Positions 22,317-39,633 of a stretch of DNA of 45,372 nucleotides are shown piece after piece; the stretch's first letter is position 1; every line of letters begins with the position of its first letter. The stretch lies in contig CAJCJH010000045.1 of assembly GCA_903970615.1 (NCBI GenBank), forward strand, positions 1-45,372, in the 5' to 3' direction. This stretch comes from Rhodospirillales bacterium. GTDB lineage: Bacteria > Pseudomonadota > Gammaproteobacteria > Nevskiales > Nevskiaceae. The notes beneath the pieces were generated by a model that had not been told where the DNA came from, ran no database searches, and worked only from the letters and a program-made list of their open reading frames with translations. Made by a program: the position numbers and the translations under genes.

Positions 22317-25142
22317 ATGAATGAGTCCGCGCCATCGACCGTCATCCTGATCGATGCTTCCGGCTGGCTGTTCCGCGCGTATCACGCGCTGCCGCCGCTG
22401 AACACTTCCCGCGGCGAGCCGACCGGCGCGATTTTCGGCATGAGCAACATGATCCGGCGGCTTTGCAAGGAATATCAGCCGCAGCGCATCGCGGTGATTT
22501 TCGACGCGCCCGGCCGCACGTTTCGTGACGATATTTTTGCCGAGTACAAGGCCAATCGGGATGCAACGCCAGCCGATTTGTCGGCGCAATATTCCGGCCT
22601 GGTCGAACTGATCGAAGCACTCGGGTTGCCGTTGCTGGCAGTCGCCGGCGTCGAGGCTGATGACGTCATCGGCACGCTGGCCACACAGGCCCAGGCCGAA
22701 GGCGCGGAAGTGCTGATCGTCACCAGCGACAAGGACATGGCGCAGCTGGTGACGCCGCGCGTGCATCTGCTCGACACGATGAAAAACCGCCGGCTCGATC
22801 CGGCCGGCGTGGTCGAGAAATGGGGCGTGCCGCCGGAGCGAATCATCGAATATCTGGCACTGGTTGGCGATACCTCGGACAATATTCCCGGCGTGCCCTT
22901 GGTCGGCCCGAAGACGGCTGCGAAATGGCTCAATGAATACGGCGATCTGGAGCAATTGATCGCGCGCTCGGATGAGATAAAAGGCAAGGCTGGCGAAAAC
23001 CTGCGCGCCAGCCTGGGCCAGATTCCGATGGCGAAGGATCTGGCGACGATCCGCTGCGATGTGGAACTGCCGATGTCGCTGGACGCACTCGTGCCGAGCG
23101 CGCCGGATCGTCCGCGTTTGCTCGCGCTCTATCGCCGCTTTGAATTCCATCGTCTGGCGGATGAACTCGGCGATGTTGAAGAATCTTCCGCCCAGACTGC
23201 GAAGACCGAAAAACTCGAAGGTGTAGCTGCGAATGAAATTTCTGGCGCTAACGCAAACCAAACATCAACGCCAATTCCCGCAAGCGATTCGCCTCGCACG
23301 CAAGCCACATTGGTGCTCGACGATGCCGCGCTCGACGCACTCGTTGCACAACTCGAAGCCGCCGAACTGATTTCCGCCGACACCGAAACCGATAGCCTCG
23401 ATGCGATGCAGGCACGCTTGGTTGGGCTGTCATTCGCGGTGGAAGCCGGTCGCGGCTGGTATGTGCCGGTGGCGCATGATTATCTCGGCGTGCCGCCGCA
23501 GCTTGCGCTCGATCATGTGCTGGCGCGGCTCAAGCCGGTGCTGGAAAACCCGCGCAAAGCGAAGGTCGGCCAGCATGCAAAGTACGACATCAACGTGCTC
23601 GCCAATCACGGCGTGATGCTGCGTGGCCTGGCGTTCGACACCATGCTCGAAAGCTATGTGCTCGATGCCGCCGGCCAGCGGCACGACATGGATACGCTCG
23701 CGGAAAAGCATCTGAACCATCGTACGATTCACTTCGCTGACGTCGCCGGCAAGGGCAAAACGCAGCTCACGTTCAATCAGGTGGCGCTCGATAAAGCCGC
23801 CGAATATTCCGCCGAGGATGCGGACATCACGCTGCGTTTGCATCAGGCTTTATATCCGCGCGTTTGCGAAATCGATGCGCTGAAAAACGTATTTGAAACG
23901 CTGGAAATGCCGCTGGTGCCGGTGCTCGCGAAGATGGAACGCAACGGCGTGTGCGTGGATGGCAAGCTGCTCGCGCGCATCAGCGGCGAGCTGGCCGCGC
24001 GCATGGATGAACTGCAAAAGGAAGTCTGGCAACAGGCCGGCACCGAGTTCAATCTCGGCTCGCCGAAGCAGTTGCAGGCGATCCTTTACGACCAGCTCAA
24101 GCTGCCCGTGCTGGGCCGCACGCCGAAGGGCGACCCTTCGACCGCCGAAGATGTGCTCGAAGATCTCGCCGCACAACATCCGCTGCCGAAACTGCTGCTC
24201 GAATGGCGCGGCTTGTCGAAGCTGCGCTCGACTTACGCGGACAATCTGCCGAAACAGATCAATCCGAAAACCGGCCGCATCCACACTTCGTATCACCAGG
24301 CCGTCGCGGCGACCGGGCGCTTGTCGTCGTCCGACCCCAATCTGCAAAATATTCCGGTGCGTACCGCCGAGGGCCGGCGCATTCGTCAGGCGTTTATCGC
24401 AGCGCCCGGCAAGGCGCTGCTGTCGATCGATTATTCGCAGATCGAGTTGCGATTGATGGCGCATTTTTCCGGCGACGAGCGCTTGCAGGATGCGTTTCAG
24501 CGCGGGCTGGATATTCATCAGGCAACGGCGGCGGAAGTCTGGGGCTTATCGCCGGACAAGGTCAGCAGCGAGCAACGCCGTGCTGCGAAAGCGGTGAATT
24601 TCGGCTTGATTTACGGCATTTCGGCGTTCGGGCTGGCGCGCAACATCAACATTTCGCGCAGCGAAGCGCAGGACACCATCGATCGCTTTTTCGCGCGCTA
24701 TCCCGGCGTCAAACGCTTCATGGATGGCACGCGCGAACAGGCGCGTCAGCGCGGTTATGTCGAAACGCTGTTCGGCCGCCGGCTGTATCTGCCGAACATT
24801 CTCGCGCGCAACGGCGCGCAGCGGCAGTACGCCGAGCGCACCGCGATCAATGCGCCGCTTCAAGGTACGGCGGCCGACCTGATCAAGCTGGCGATGATCC
24901 AGCTGGCCGGCTGGCTGGCGCAAAACGCGCCCGGCGTGCAGATGATCATGCAAGTGCATGACGAACTGGTTTTCGAGGGCGCCGAAATCGAGTTGCAAAA
25001 GCTGGCGCCGCAAATCGCCGGGCAGATGTGCAAGGTGAGATCGCTGGCGGTGCCGCTGGTGGCGGATTGGGGCATCGGCGCTAACTGGGATGCGGCGCAT
25101 CACGCCACCGGGCATGTCAGCAGTGACGCTTCGCGCGACTGA
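22317..25142 (+). CDS. polA: DNA polymerase I
   Basis: PolA fills gaps in repair and removes Okazaki primers. The 941-residue protein has the 5' nuclease at about 1-290 (LIDASGWLFRAYHALPP, TSDKDMAQLV), an Ala/Thr-rich linker near 295-330, a 3'-5' exonuclease domain at about 330-520 and the polymerase at about 540-941. The proofreading residues look intact: DTETD, QHAKYDINVL and YSAEDAD. Polymerase motifs A (SIDYSQIELRL), B (RRAAKAVNFGLIYG) and C (MQVHDELVFE) are present. It begins 30 bp after lysA. It is followed by a candidate terminator and the sRNA locus. Confidence 0.97.
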   Translation: MNESAPSTVILIDASGWLFRAYHALPPLNTSRGEPTGAIFGMSNMIRRLCKEYQPQRIAVIFDAPGRTFRDDIFAEYKANRDATPADLSAQYSGLVELIEALGLPLLAVAGVEADDVIGTLATQAQAEGAEVLIVTSDKDMAQLVTPRVHLLDTMKNRRLDPAGVVEKWGVPPERIIEYLALVGDTSDNIPGVPLVGPKTAAKWLNEYGDLEQLIARSDEIKGKAGENLRASLGQIPMAKDLATIRCDVELPMSLDALVPSAPDRPRLLALYRRFEFHRLADELGDVEESSAQTAKTEKLEGVAANEISGANANQTSTPIPASDSPRTQATLVLDDAALDALVAQLEAAELISADTETDSLDAMQARLVGLSFAVEAGRGWYVPVAHDYLGVPPQLALDHVLARLKPVLENPRKAKVGQHAKYDINVLANHGVMLRGLAFDTMLESYVLDAAGQRHDMDTLAEKHLNHRTIHFADVAGKGKTQLTFNQVALDKAAEYSAEDADITLRLHQALYPRVCEIDALKNVFETLEMPLVPVLAKMERNGVCVDGKLLARISGELAARMDELQKEVWQQAGTEFNLGSPKQLQAILYDQLKLPVLGRTPKGDPSTAEDVLEDLAAQHPLPKLLLEWRGLSKLRSTYADNLPKQINPKTGRIHTSYHQAVAATGRLSSSDPNLQNIPVRTAEGRRIRQAFIAAPGKALLSIDYSQIELRLMAHFSGDERLQDAFQRGLDIHQATAAEVWGLSPDKVSSEQRRAAKAVNFGLIYGISAFGLARNINISRSEAQDTIDRFFARYPGVKRFMDGTREQARQRGYVETLFGRRLYLPNILARNGAQRQYAERTAINAPLQGTAADLIKLAMIQLAGWLAQNAPGVQMIMQVHDELVFEGAEIELQKLAPQIAGQMCKVRSLAVPLVADWGIGANWDAAHHATGHVSSDASRD

Positions 25143-25256: not shown

Positions 25257-25310
25257 GGGCTTTTCGGCAGGTTTTTGGCCGGCTGCCGCCAGAAAATGTT
25301 GCGATGCAGT

Positions 25311-25338
25311 GGAACTAAGTCGGCGGGAACGTATCTGA
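25311..25338 (+). promoter_or_regulatory. Candidate ECF (RpoE/AlgU-type) promoter
   Basis: GGAACT at 25311-25316 and TCTGA at 25334-25338 are 17 bp apart, equal to the RpoE/AlgU consensus GGAACTT-N16-TCTGA apart from the seventh -35 base (A instead of T). Start would fall near 25344-25347. It sits immediately upstream of a structured, terminator-ended non-coding segment and faces away from polA, so it has its own transcription unit to drive. Confidence 0.5.
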
Positions 25339-25343
25339 TATTA

Positions 25344-25460
25344 CGAATGGTGACTCCCTTTCCCGTTCATCCGCCTTCACTCCCTGGGCGGATTCATCCG
25401 GCATCCCCCAAGCCGGAACTCGTTGCCCGATGGGTTTCCCCGACCCGTCGGGCATTTTTT
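25344..25460 (+). ncRNA. Candidate small RNA with C-rich loops (Spot 42/ErsA position, sX13-like architecture)
   Basis: Between the ECF-type promoter and a strong intrinsic terminator lies a roughly 115-nt segment with no ORF. It starts with a pyrimidine-rich leader (GGTGACTCCCTTTCCCG). Hairpin 1 pairs ATCCGCC (25369-25375) with GGCGGAT (25387-25393), leaving a loop containing CACTCCCT. Hairpin 2 pairs TCCGGC (25397-25402) with GCCGGA (25412-25417), with loop ATCCCCCAA. The terminator stem follows. The polA-engB interval carries Spot 42 in enterobacteria and ErsA in Pseudomonas, and I recall that the Xanthomonas sRNA sX13 (about 115 nt, C-rich loops) also lies next to polA. C-rich unpaired loops could pair with G-rich ribosome-binding regions. 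Homology was not tested. Confidence 0.65.
25424..25460 (+). terminator. Strong rho-independent terminator of the candidate sRNA
   Basis: Arms TGCCCGATGGGT (25424-25435) and ACCCGTCGGGCA (25443-25454) pair over 12 positions with one G-U/mismatch, leaving a 7-nt loop TTCCCCG, then six T (25455-25460). This is the strongest hairpin-plus-T-run seen in the intergenic sequences of the window. Confidence 0.85.
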
Positions 25461-25635
25461 ATGTCGGGTCCAAGCGAAATTCAACGCATTCGAGTTGAGC
25501 GGCGCTGATGGCAAGATCGGCCTGCGAAGCGACCGCGCTGCTAAATTTTCCAAACCGCCGACGGCTGCAGACGCGCGGCTGACAGCAGCTAACAACTCTG
25601 CGTTACACATCTCGCGACATGCGATAAAACCGCAA

Positions 25636-26298
25636 TCAGTTTCCCACTTCAGCGGATTCCACATCACCAGTCGGCGTTTGCGCCAGCCACTGATCGACCG
25701 TCGCACGCACCGTTTCCAGCCCCAGACCACTCTCGGATGAAAACGCCTGCACGCCAGCGCTGAAGTCGCGCGCGCGCAAGGTTGCTTCGACTTCGCGGGT
25801 TGCATTTTTGGTTGCGCCAAAGCCGAGCTTGTCGGCTTTAGTCAACAAGATATGCGTGGCGCAATTACGGCTGCGCGCCCATTCCAGCATCTGCCAGTCG
25901 AGATCGGTGAGCGGACGGCGGATATCCATCACCACCACCACGCCGCGCAGGTTCGGCCGATGCTCCATGAAGCCGCCGACCAGATTGCCCCAGGCGCGCT
26001 TCACCTCCAGCGGTGCCTGCGCGAAGCCATAGCCCGGCAGATCGACCAGCCGATGGCCTGACGGCAGCGAAAACAGGTTGATGAGTTGCGTGCGCCCCGG
26101 CGTCTTGCTGACCCGCGCCAGCGCGCGCTGGTCGCAGATTTTATTCAGCGCGCTGGATTTGCCCGCATTCGAGCGGCCGACGAACGCCGCCTCGCCCGCA
26201 TGATCTTTCGGCAGTTGCGCCAGCCGCGCGGCGGACAGCACGAATTGCGCCTGGCGAAACGGATTGAAGACGGGCGGCGGGGTAACGGCGGAGTTCAT
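25636..26298 (-). CDS. engB: Ribosome biogenesis GTP-binding protein EngB (YihA/YsxC)
   Basis: EngB is an essential TrmE-Era-type GTPase needed for 50S subunit assembly. The 220-residue protein carries G1 GRSNAGKS (41-48), G2 region TPGRTQLINLF, G3 DLPGYG (86-91) and G4 TKADKL (153-158), and the G5-like FSSESGLGL. It has the short N-terminal segment with FRQAQFVLSAARLAQLP typical of the family. ATG at 26298 is preferred because 34 further upstream codons would extend the protein well beyond the usual N-terminus. It is convergent with the sRNA locus and divergent from the cytochrome c4 gene (151 bp between starts). Confidence 0.95.
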   Translation of the reverse strand: MNSAVTPPPVFNPFRQAQFVLSAARLAQLPKDHAGEAAFVGRSNAGKSSALNKICDQRALARVSKTPGRTQLINLFSLPSGHRLVDLPGYGFAQAPLEVKRAWGNLVGGFMEHRPNLRGVVVVMDIRRPLTDLDWQMLEWARSRNCATHILLTKADKLGFGATKNATREVEATLRARDFSAGVQAFSSESGLGLETVRATVDQWLAQTPTGDVESAEVGN

Positions 26299-26449
26299 TT
26301 CAGGCGCTGGCTGCACCGGCTTTGAGGATGATTTTTCGGGCACAAGGATGGAGCCATCGTGTAATATTTGGCGGTCCTCGACGGACCGAATCCATTCCAA
26401 TTGTGCGCCGAACGCGAAGGATGCGTTACGGTTTCTCGGAGCCTAAGTA

Positions 26450-31726: not shown

Positions 31727-32329
31727 CTATTGTGGCGTCTGGAAACCGGGCTGACCCAGTTGTTCGGGAGTTTGCGGGACACGTTTGAAAGTGCTGATGT
31801 CGTAGCCCTGTGCGGCGAAATGTTGCAGTAAATCCTGGTACTTCGCGTCGCTCATCTGTGGCGAGCGGGCGAATATCCAGCCCCAGCTTTTATCCGGATA
31901 ACCGACCAGAGCGTACTGGTAATCGGCATCGACATAAATGATCGGGTAGCTGAAGTATATCGGCCAAAACGGCGACGCGCGCCACTTCGCATTGTGCGTG
32001 CCTTCGACCACGTAATCCTTCAGTGCGGCGCGAGTGAGTTCGCTATCGAAAGTTTTTTTGTGGCCAAAAAAAATGTCGTCGATATCGCCATCCGCGCGCT
32101 TGCTGTATTCGACATAACTGCCGACGAACCCGCGCTCGGCGAAGTACGGCACATTCGCGATGATGTACCAGCGGCCCATGTAGCGATCGAGATCGACATT
32201 CGGTGCAAGCTTCAATGGCGCATCTGCAATCGGCTCTGAAGGCGTGTGAGCACAGGCATCCAGAGTGATTGGTGCTATAGAAGTCAGCGCCAGCAACAGC
32301 GCACATTTCCTGCGATTTCCATTCAACAT
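31727..32329 (-). CDS. Lipocalin family protein (Blc-like outer-membrane lipoprotein)
   Basis: A 200-residue exported lipocalin. The N-terminus is a signal ending ITLDAC (C26), a lipoprotein-like site although not a perfect lipobox. The lipocalin core starts LDRYMGRWYIIANVPYFAE with the conserved GxW, then VGSYVEYSKRADGDIDDIFF, and continues to AALKDYVVEGTHNAKW and YQYALVGYPDKSWGWIFARSP. The latter block is a hallmark of Blc/apolipoprotein-D-like members, which bind lysophospholipids or fatty acids. It may be outer-membrane anchored. The YgjP-like gene starts 6 bp past its stop. ATG 32329 is preferred over the ATG seven codons upstream because it begins directly at the signal sequence. Confidence 0.88.
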   Translation of the reverse strand: MLNGNRRKCALLLALTSIAPITLDACAHTPSEPIADAPLKLAPNVDLDRYMGRWYIIANVPYFAERGFVGSYVEYSKRADGDIDDIFFGHKKTFDSELTRAALKDYVVEGTHNAKWRASPFWPIYFSYPIIYVDADYQYALVGYPDKSWGWIFARSPQMSDAKYQDLLQHFAAQGYDISTFKRVPQTPEQLGQPGFQTPQ

Positions 32330-32430: not shown

Positions 32431-33216
32431 TCAGTTCGGTTTGCAGCCGATCCGTTCAAGCAGACCATCGAGCTCATCGAGACTATGAAAGCGGATGCGC
32501 AGCTCGCCCTTGTTTTTTGCCAAAGCTTGAAACGCAACCGGATAGCCGAGCTGCTCCGATAACTGTTGCGCCAGCCGCGACCAGTCATCCGCACGCAAAG
32601 GCCTGGCAGGCTGCGGCACCGCTGCGGCGAGCCGGCGTTCCAGCGCGCGCACAGTCAGATTTTCGCGCACGCATACTGCGGCCCATTTCAACTGCGCGGC
32701 CACATCCAGCCCGGCCAGAATCTTGGCGTGACCGAGCGACAGCTCAGCCGAATCCACTAGTGCCCGCACCGGCGGCGCGAGCGACAGCAGGCGCAAAAAA
32801 TTGGTGACATAAGCGCGTGATTTGCCGATGCGGCTGCCGATCGCCTCGTGCGTCAGCGCGAAGGCTTCACCGAGCCGGCGCAGACCTTCCGCGGTCTCGA
32901 TCGGCGACAGCGATTCGCGTTGCAGGTTTTCGATCAGGCCGAGAATATGTGCGGCATCGTCGTCGAGATCGTCGCGGATCACCGCGGGCACTTCGTGCAA
33001 GCCGGCCAGTTGCGCGGCGCGCCAGCGGCGTTCGCCGGCGAGCAGTTCGTAAAAGCGTCCGCGGCGGCGCAGAACCAGCGGCTGGACGATGCCGGATTCG
33101 CGGATCGACGCCGCCAGTTCCGCCAGCCGTTCCGGTTCGAAGCGCTTGCGCGCCTGGGTCTCGCCGGGCTGGATCAGGTCCACCGGGATGCGGTGCACTT
33201 CGTCGGCGCGGCTCAT
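32431..33216 (-). CDS. parB: ParB/RepB/Spo0J family chromosome partition protein
   Basis: A 261-residue ParB: N-terminal CTP-binding domain with LIQPGETQARKRF and the GERRWRAA P-motif (61-68), ENLQRESLSPIETAEG, then the HTH region with GKSRAYVTNFLRLLSL and LSLGHAKILAGLD, the conserved chromosomal ParB signature. The C-terminal segment is short, so the dimerisation domain is on the small side. ParB loads on parS and spreads by CTP switching. No parA lies beside it and no palindromic parS consensus was seen by eye in the window. It is divergent from folE (72 bp between starts). It could be the chromosomal ParB separated from parA or a paralogue. Confidence 0.87.
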   Translation of the reverse strand: MSRADEVHRIPVDLIQPGETQARKRFEPERLAELAASIRESGIVQPLVLRRRGRFYELLAGERRWRAAQLAGLHEVPAVIRDDLDDDAAHILGLIENLQRESLSPIETAEGLRRLGEAFALTHEAIGSRIGKSRAYVTNFLRLLSLAPPVRALVDSAELSLGHAKILAGLDVAAQLKWAAVCVRENLTVRALERRLAAAVPQPARPLRADDWSRLAQQLSEQLGYPVAFQALAKNKGELRIRFHSLDELDGLLERIGCKPN

Positions 33217-36085: not shown

Positions 36086-36634
36086 TTAGTTGGCGTAAGA
36101 CAAGGTGTTATCGCCGTTCACATGCACTTTGGTGCCAACGCCCAAGCCGTTCAGCTGGTCGACGGTGACTTCGCGTGTGCCGCCTGCTTCCATGTTGACG
36201 ACGACGTGATACACGTCCTTCGCGCGCACCTGCGATTCGACTTCACGGCCAGCGAACGCACCACCGACAGCGCCCAGCGCCATCATGGCGAACTTGCCGG
36301 ATTTCTTGCCGAACTGACCGCCTGCCGCGGCACCTGCGCCAGCGCCGCCCAAGGTTCCCAGTGCGGTGGCCTGGCCAGCAACCCGTTCTTCCTGCACTGA
36401 TACGATCGTGCCGCAATCTCCACAAACCGGCGGCGGGGGCGGTGCATATTCCGGTTCGCGCTCGACACGACGCTCCGGACGCGGGCGCGGTGCGGCGGCA
36501 GGTGCCGCGGCTGGCGGCGGCGCGACCGGTGTGGCGGTTTCTGCCGGTGGCGGCGGCGGTGCCTGCTGCGGGCCGCAAGCGCCCAGCGCGAGTGAGCCAA
36601 CGATGATCAATGACGAAAGCGTTTTCTTGAACAT
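36086..36634 (-). CDS. Glycine-zipper 2TM domain lipoprotein (SlyB/PcP-like)
   Basis: A 182-residue outer-membrane lipoprotein candidate. Signal MFKKTLSSLIIVGSLALGAC with lipobox LGAC (C20), then a Pro/Ala-rich linker (about 22-70), CGDCGTIVSVQEERVAG, and the glycine zipper domain ALGTLGGAGAGAAAGGQFG...ALGAVGGAFAGREVES. It ends in a small beta-rich domain YHVVVNMEAGGTREVTVDQ. Relatives include SlyB and Pal cross-reacting lipoproteins that stabilise the outer membrane. Convergent with the hypothetical gene across a shared terminator. It has a cysteine pair (CGDC) just before the zipper. Confidence 0.86.
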   Translation of the reverse strand: MFKKTLSSLIIVGSLALGACGPQQAPPPPPAETATPVAPPPAAAPAAAPRPRPERRVEREPEYAPPPPPVCGDCGTIVSVQEERVAGQATALGTLGGAGAGAAAGGQFGKKSGKFAMMALGAVGGAFAGREVESQVRAKDVYHVVVNMEAGGTREVTVDQLNGLGVGTKVHVNGDNTLSYAN

Positions 36635-39556: not shown

Positions 39557-39633
39557 GGGCCTATAGCTCAATTGGTTAGAGCAGAAGACTCATAATCTTT
39601 TGGTTCCAGGTTCAAGTCCTGGTGGGCCCACCA
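39557..39633 (+). tRNA. tRNA with CAU anticodon, probably tRNA-Ile2 (lysidine-type), possibly tRNA-Met
   Basis: A 77-nt cloverleaf from GGGCCTATAGCTCA to the encoded CCA end. The acceptor GGGCCTA pairs with the 3' strand TGGGCCC apart from a T-G pair. D-loop TAGCTCAATTGGTTAGAGC, anticodon loop CTCATAA (anticodon 39591-39593) and T-loop GGTTCAAGTCC are all present. The acceptor has C4-G69 and C5-G68, and the anticodon stem GACT...AATC resembles tRNA-Ile2, which reads AUA after TilS modification of C34. Elongator Met is the alternative. Confidence 0.95.

Follow-up and report, generated by a model that had tools for sequence, protein, structure and literature searches.

By comparative evidence, the interval between polA and engB in the window (the whole stretch of 45,372 nucleotides that was analysed, from a genome of the order Nevskiales) carries a real, conserved and multi-copy small RNA (sRNA) gene. 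A gene with C-rich loops had been predicted at this place from the letters of the DNA, and conservation, covariation, copy number and a conserved promoter now back it: the gene elements that had been observed were confirmed, and the interpretation given to them was partly supported. The reading preferred here, with a probability of about 70%, is that of a stand-alone, trans-acting sRNA of about 116 nt which would belong to an old proteobacterial family, would be driven by a sigma factor of the RpoE type under envelope stress and would block Shine-Dalgarno (SD) regions by its loops. The original prediction had missed anti-hemB as the closest Rfam family, the ECF-type promoter, the first hairpin and the multi-copy nature of the gene.

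Structure of the gene

The features of the locus are listed in Table 1. The flanking genes were polA and engB as predicted, and the EngB of the window had its nearest named relatives in a MAG labelled Nevskia sp., at 80% identity, and, at 75%, in an uncultured Sinobacteraceae MAG. Both names fall within the Nevskiaceae (order Nevskiales, Gammaproteobacteria) in the NCBI taxonomy. The putative 5' end of the sRNA was placed by the distance from the promoter, 6-7 nt past the -10 element, and the putative 3' end by the terminator. The stretch 25345-25460 was folded into four consecutive hairpins, the last of which is the terminator and all of which have C-rich loops, with a minimum free energy of -54.5 kcal/mol (z -6.75; 0 of 200 shuffled sequences folded as well), and the fold of all 150 nt from 25311 to 25460 had a z of -3.67.

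Table 1. Features of the polA-engB locus, with positions counted in the window
Feature	Position	Strand	Basis
polA (context)	22317-25142	+	co-directional upstream neighbour; NF004397 DNA polymerase I, 1164.6 bits
sigma-E (ECF)-type promoter: -35 GAACTA 25312-25317, spacer 16 nt, -10 TCTGA 25334-25338	25312-25338	+	motif
sRNA gene, ~116 nt (putative ends)	25345-25460	+	fold; model R1 match 25345-25460, 120.1 bits (this copy is itself among the 44 rows that make up R1)
hairpin 1, loop CUCCCUU (25354-25360)	25345-25368	+	fold; both-side changes in 6/8 pairs
hairpin 2, loop UCACUCCCU (25377-25385)	25369-25393	+	fold, covariation, CUCC in 109/118 aligned copies
hairpin 3, loop AUCCCCCAA (25403-25411)	25397-25417	+	fold, covariation, CCC in 110/118 aligned copies
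Rho-independent terminator with loop UCCCC on a 13-pair stem (25424-25454), followed by six T	25424-25460	+	fold, covariation
engB/ysxC (context)	25636-26400	-	convergent downstream neighbour; TIGR03598, 213.6 bits

The two hairpins with the loops UCACUCCCU and AUCCCCCAA were found where they had been predicted, and so was the terminator with its six T, the stem of which has 13 pairs instead of the 12 given before. The part that had been taken for a pyrimidine-rich leader is hairpin 1, a structure supported by covariation. The earlier statement that the interval contains no ORF does not hold literally, as a 77-aa TTG frame (25275-25508, + strand) and a 46-aa frame (25315-25455, - strand) cross the sRNA, and on either strand longer TTG frames reach into its 3' part; a peptide-coding reading was nevertheless disfavoured, because indels and compensatory stem changes are seen among the relatives.

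Distribution and conservation

BLAST matches to the sRNA were found in 40 of 61 genomes, the own genome being counted. A covariance model, R1, was built from 44 copies (46 minus two identical ones) and holds neither the promoter nor the neighbouring genes, being blind to synteny. It matched 83 of the 85 genomes of the order, with up to six matches per genome; all 72 genomes with at least 90% completeness and at most 5% contamination were matched, and the two genomes with no match are 79% and 81% complete, respectively. The genome of the window has four copies, one of them inside the window. Diverged copies lie near a peroxiredoxin gene (G000:C2:193-311), near a gene for an AbrB-type membrane protein (G000:C68:12862-12976, with no clear promoter) and near a ychF-type GTPase gene (G000:C126:7438-7546). 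Copies less than 1 kb apart are present in at least 29 genomes of the order; tandem copies have promoter motifs of their own.

Among 370 genomes of the class, 105 were matched by R1, five of these belonging to the order. The neighbourhoods of 108 loci were examined, four of them in the order and the other 104 spread over 100 genomes. PolA adjoined 61 of the 108, EngB 74, either one 86, both 49 and neither 22; outside the order, polA and/or engB adjoined 82 of 104 loci (in 82 of 100 genomes), and neither was found at the remaining 22. These counts are lower bounds, because the flanks searched reached about 1.5 kb at 29 loci and about 2.5 kb at the other 79, and some stopped at contig ends. The sRNA runs in the same direction as polA at 57 of 61 loci and opposite to engB at 71 of 74. 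A wider model, R2, comprises 118 copies (100 loci, a part of those in the class, were given to the alignment step behind A3 and R2) and matched 183 of 342 class genomes, from which R2 had itself been partly built. In a phylum sample of 199 genomes it matched 43, and 19 of these lay outside the class, with a best score of 37.0 bits, which was taken as the noise ceiling of R2 because its E-values are rough; an extension of the family beyond the class was rejected, the 19 matches being put at noise level.

The covarying stems and conserved loops that an alignment of relatives had been predicted to reveal were both found. Paired cells made up 94.0% of the alignment of 44 copies from the order and 92.7% of the alignment of 118 copies (25 rows from the order and 93 from outside), the latter having been fitted to R1 and being biased towards it; when the partner was slid by one column in the 118-copy alignment, pairing fell to 47-48%. 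Double changes, the excess of which over shuffles is inflated by kinship among the rows, were seen in 23 of 35 pairs (12.4 in shuffles) and 151 cells (38.8 in shuffles) of the smaller alignment, and in 34 of 34 pairs (28.1 in shuffles) and 1105 cells (336.6 in shuffles) of the larger one. Besides the loop motifs given in Table 1, the fuller CUCCCU stands in 93 of the 118 hairpin-2 loops and CCC in 90 of the 118 terminator loops; CUCC in hairpin 1 is confined to 14 of 118 copies, 11 of them from the order. Changing stems combined with constant loops are the pattern expected of an RNA that pairs through its loops. The copy in the window, which belongs to the rows defining the polA-engB CUCCC-loop family (R1 and R2), has the defining features of covarying hairpins, the CUCC loop of hairpin 2, the terminator and a promoter of the type GAACTT-N16-TC.

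It is very improbable that the region is a mere strong terminator for polA and engB, with hairpins that have no function in trans. The sRNA does lie at the 3' end of polA and close in a strong terminator, but it has a conserved promoter of its own and three covarying hairpins ahead of that terminator, its loops are kept while the stems change, extra copies occur elsewhere in the genome and the tandem copies of relatives carry their own promoter motifs.

Promoter

A promoter-like element is present, as predicted, but it is not of the sigma-70 kind: the search for a sigma-70 promoter gave no site, such a promoter was rejected for the sRNA of the window, and the element reads as the ECF/sigma-E-like GAACTA-N16-TCTGA. 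The consensus of RpoE is about GGAACTT at -35 and about TCAAA at -10 (PMC12153292). Judged by this likeness, the promoter would depend on an ECF sigma factor.

A strict motif, GAACTT (at most one mismatch)-N15-18-TCnnA, was set from the RpoE consensus and fixed after the upstream sequences of the same loci had already been inspected, and 85 nt around the start were scanned. The four order-level loci among the 108 were left out, and the unit of the test was the locus (104 in 100 genomes), not the independent lineage. The strict motif was found at 63 of these 104 loci, and its spacer was 16 nt in 56 of the 63. Control windows drawn from the same loci had it in 25 of 5332 cases (p 1e-97), and shuffled versions of the upstream sequences in 38 of 3120. 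With the -10 element relaxed to TC alone, 87 of the 104 loci matched, as against 113 of 5332 controls. Some copies lack the motif, for example those at L112, L113, L156 and L159.

GAACTW-N16-TCTRA occurs at two sites in the genome of the window, each preceding a copy of the sRNA, and the reversed control pattern occurs at 11. Of the 68 GAACTT-N16-TCTRA sites in 50 genomes with the family, at least 32 are placed 7-9 nt ahead of a listed sRNA copy; since the reversed control pattern has more sites, namely 88, it is the position of the motif and not its number that is telling. The promoter is not assignable to RpoE over another ECF sigma factor, because in the genome of the window the pattern GAACTW-N16-TCTRA marks nothing apart from two copies of the sRNA. 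The genome encodes RpoE (TIGR02939, 293.7 bits; cut-off 236.15) and Hfq (103.8 bits). The gene next after rpoE matches RseA_N weakly (21.7 bits; cut-off 24), and rseB comes after it. Autoregulation of rpoE was tried as a check on the motif and gave no site in the upstream stretch scanned. A second RseA_N-like anti-sigma protein is encoded at L061:1501-2217 (G000:C95; 25.5 and 27.2 bits in two scans), and no rpoE gene was identified among the ORFs of the stretch around it.

Relationship to known RNAs

By curated cut-offs, the copy in the window is a member of no Rfam family, since no match reached its cut-off when the sRNA interval was searched against all families. Across the window, a single Rfam match reached its gathering score, that of a tRNA gene at 39557-39630 (+ strand, 73.3 bits). 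The nearest family to the sRNA was anti-hemB (RF02837; 42.9 bits, E 8.7e-9, gathering score 49.5) and the second was sX13 (RF02232; 26.2 bits, cut-off 50). Spot 42, sX13 and ErsA had been named as the families to be looked for; sX13 was thus matched below its cut-off and ErsA (RF01719, gathering score 50) was not matched at E ≤ 10. RybB, MicA and MicL, the sigma-E sRNAs of E. coli, had no Rfam match in the interval at E ≤ 10 either, and their likeness to the sRNA would lie in the proposed mode of working as a repressing arm of the RpoE response.

Anti-hemB is Burkholderia RNA 7, the ncS04 of B. cenocepacia. Going by its name, it would act as an antisense RNA to hemB; this misfits the copy in the window, situated between polA and engB and overlapping neither. 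The window copy was aligned over the full length of the anti-hemB consensus (positions 1-81; CUCCCUG hairpin, second hairpin, terminator), with which it has in common a hairpin with CUCCCUGaGCGGG, the second hairpin and the terminator; the 81 positions of the Rfam model span hairpins 2 and 3 and the terminator, and hairpin 1 lies outside them. Twenty loci chosen out of L063-L091 (29 loci), 19 of the twenty from outside the order, were scanned with Rfam: all 20 matched anti-hemB (best E ≤ 1.3e-4) and four exceeded its cut-off. Weaker matches of the same loci were to sX13 (two), Pseudomon-1/ErsA (two), ar14 (one; L065, 31.3 bits) and ncS037 (one; L074, 34 bits), the last two with E of 0.05-0.08; because ar14 and ncS037 also match weakly, weak cross-matches between C-rich RNAs are uninformative on their own. 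At a relaxed threshold, the anti-hemB-type RNAs and the sRNA of the window form one family. In the passages of PMC5688073, ncS04 is listed as 105 nt and an ECF promoter is unmentioned.

The likeness to sX13 of the Xanthomonadaceae, raised in the original prediction, stood as regards the location downstream of polA and the C-rich loops on stable hairpins, and did not reach the Rfam cut-off at the window copy. R2 scored 36.8-39.0 bits at three true sX13 loci, the best listed match in each genome, and 34.7-36.5 bits at the second-best places of these genomes; as these places come close to the sX13 scores and the out-of-class noise (37.0 bits) reaches into them, the link leans on location as well as on score. 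The three loci are beside polA and have no clear GAACTT-N16-TC promoter; GAACCT-N16-GTCTTA stands upstream of the sX13-like relative L188. Among 342 class genomes, the sX13 model gave three places above its cut-off and 12 below, of which six are listed R1 loci, L188 was matched by R1 on its own and five were not matched. The kinship is weakly to moderately supported, and sX13 probably belongs to the same family as the sRNA of the window. The loop-dependent repression of G-rich mRNAs by sX13 is independent of Hfq, and this RNA has been described as restricted to the Xanthomonadaceae (PMC3771888).

ErsA agrees with the sRNA of the window in locus and promoter type and shows little likeness to it in sequence. 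The one genome above the cut-off of ErsA/Pseudomon-1 has its locus (L172) beside polA and behind GAACTT-N16-GTCATA, as regards place and motif type like the window copy; R1 gave no match there, and R2 gave 27.9 bits, below the out-of-class noise ceiling of 37.0. The 12 sub-cut-off places of the ErsA model in the 342 class genomes comprised eight R1 loci, three places matched by R2 (one with just 29.3 bits) and one matched by neither. ErsA, with a common locus and promoter type and little sequence in common, may be of the same family. It has 132 nt, its pairing is predicted to occur via an unstructured region (PMC5819304), and it represses algC and oprD (PMC8395346).

Spot 42 (spf of E. coli), which has 41% G+C, occupies the same polA-yihA(engB) interval in the same orientation, as had been pointed out, but R2 scored 23.0 bits at spf, and loci with neither polA nor engB in the same search scored 22.2-24.5. 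Homology was set aside at this noise-level score, and Spot 42 would be at most a possible relative of the sRNA of the window.

These comparisons bear on whether an sRNA of the same structure, with the same C-rich loops, might be transcribed by another ECF or the house-keeping sigma factor and serve carbon or central metabolism like Spot 42 instead of envelope stress. This is unlikely, with a small but real chance of being right. Spot 42, whose gene lies at this locus, has its role in carbon metabolism (PMC3771888), the upstream stretch of rpoE that was scanned has no motif, and in none of the seven conditions tabulated in PMC5688073 did ncS04 change significantly; against this, the motif is very near the RpoE consensus and has a 16-nt spacer in 56 of 63 strict matches across the class, no sigma-70-type site was found at the window copy, and the ErsA locus, with the same type of motif, belongs to an RNA that is dependent on sigma-22/AlgU (PMC5819304, PMC8395346).

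Proposed mode of action and targets

In the envelope-stress reading, the sRNA would be transcribed during envelope stress by an RpoE-type (sigma-E) ECF sigma factor, a rigid chain of hairpins would display the CUCCC/CCCCC loops, and these would pair with G-rich SD regions so that translation is blocked. The targets would most likely be abundant exported and outer-membrane proteins, any need for Hfq would be part of the same proposal, and the sRNA would be the counterpart of the RybB/MicA/MicL arm of E. coli and of ErsA of Pseudomonas. Pairing of loops with SD regions is plausible because the C-rich loops of sX13 repress G-rich mRNAs (PMC3771888) and in E. coli sigma-E sRNAs carry out the repression within the RpoE response (PMC8103513). 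The sRNA may be a global post-transcriptional regulator, as the original prediction had proposed.

Start sites were taken from ORF calls on a 629-kb sample of the genome, the window included, which gave 439 genes, or 422 with a changed filter. GGGAG, the complement of CUCCC, was found at 12 of the 439 start regions as against two upstream and two inside-gene windows, a concentration that in part reflects SD sequences generally. The loops paired more strongly with start regions (median -7.3) than elsewhere (-6.3 and -6.8); composition-shuffled loops bound the starts of the first 200 genes still better, with a mean of medians of -8.46 (sd 0.55) as against -7.10 for the real ones. The starts of 56 predicted exported proteins paired better than those of the other 366 (p 0.0035; 0.002, 0.0004 and 0.19 for loops 1, 2 and 3, respectively), and none of 100 shuffled loop sets reached this p; the ribosomal anti-SD showed the same trend at these starts (p 0.013). 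Enrichment of exported proteins was not significant among the top-ranked genes (p 0.11-0.37 in six cuts), so that the top-N tests lent no significance to this target class, nor among the starts bearing GGGAG (p 0.23). The target evidence for the CUCCC loops is only suggestive, with controls that speak partly against it.

Ten annotated candidates, picked by hand as a selection and not as a test, include a glycine-zipper lipoprotein, a lipocalin, a DUF481 protein (L257:2681-3520) and a DUF1302 protein, and also a reaction-centre protein, a dehydrogenase and a Rieske oxygenase. In the window, the lipocalin gene (31730-32329, - strand) and the gene for the glycine-zipper lipoprotein (36089-36634, - strand) have CAGGGAG and AAAGGGAGU at their starts, respectively, which are complementary to loops of the sRNA, and a sigma-E-like site lies at 32437 (- strand) ahead of the lipocalin gene. 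The start region of a 194-aa predicted membrane protein with no Pfam match (L280:4475-5056, - strand) holds AGGGAGUGAA, 10 nt that are perfectly complementary to the loop of hairpin 2 together with one base flanking it. The genome of the window also encodes a photosynthetic reaction-centre protein (L258:11520-12500, G000:C48; PF00124, 359.4 bits), which suggests a phototrophic member of the order.

The loops could also act as a sponge or decoy that titrates another RNA or a protein and leaves mRNAs alone. Rigid hairpins, repeated similar loops and tandem copies do resemble titrating RNAs, and the better binding of the start regions by composition-shuffled loops points the same way. Decoys of CsrA/RsmA, however, carry a GGA motif, and the loops here carry CUCCC. 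The frequency of GGGAG at starts (12/439 as against 2/439 and 2/439 in flanking windows, if partly a general SD effect) and the action of the similar sX13 on mRNAs (PMC3771888) also count against titration, which we regard as improbable.

Origin and significance

The sRNA of the window is half-known already as anti-hemB in Burkholderia. As far as the searches reach, the class-wide extent, the ECF-type promoter and the link to sX13 and ErsA are new. In the literature surveyed (listed titles and abstract starts, and passages, the passages being those of PMC5688073, PMC3521395, PMC3771888, PMC11722255, PMC5819304, PMC8395346, PMC12153292 and PMC8103513), neither a statement that anti-hemB, sX13 and ErsA form one family nor a description of an sRNA of this type in Nevskiales was found. 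The idea of a common locus is itself not new, because PMC3771888, in which the polA locus is common to sX13, Spot 42 and the alpha-r7 RNAs and a structural likeness to alpha-r7 is noted, and PMC8395346, in which ErsA is called a functional orthologue of Spot 42, already point to it.

Since the relatives occupy the same spot in many proteobacteria, one origin of several separately described RNAs is suggested, a reading that is weakened because the second-best places in sX13 genomes come close to the sX13 loci in score. Gammaproteobacteria in the GTDB sense include the former Betaproteobacteria. Tentatively, and with a chance that we put just short of even, an envelope-stress sRNA with CUCCC loops would have stood between polA and engB in an ancestor of the Gammaproteobacteria; anti-hemB, sX13 and ErsA would be its diverged descendants, Spot 42 might be a member from which promoter and loops were lost, and the order would have amplified tandem arrays and gained an extra CUCCC hairpin.

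Class-wide models, loci and a shared promoter motif are now at hand for the polA-engB sRNA family. If the envelope-stress reading is true, the sRNA branch of the response to envelope stress would be far older and more uniform than the trio of RybB, MicA and MicL implies.
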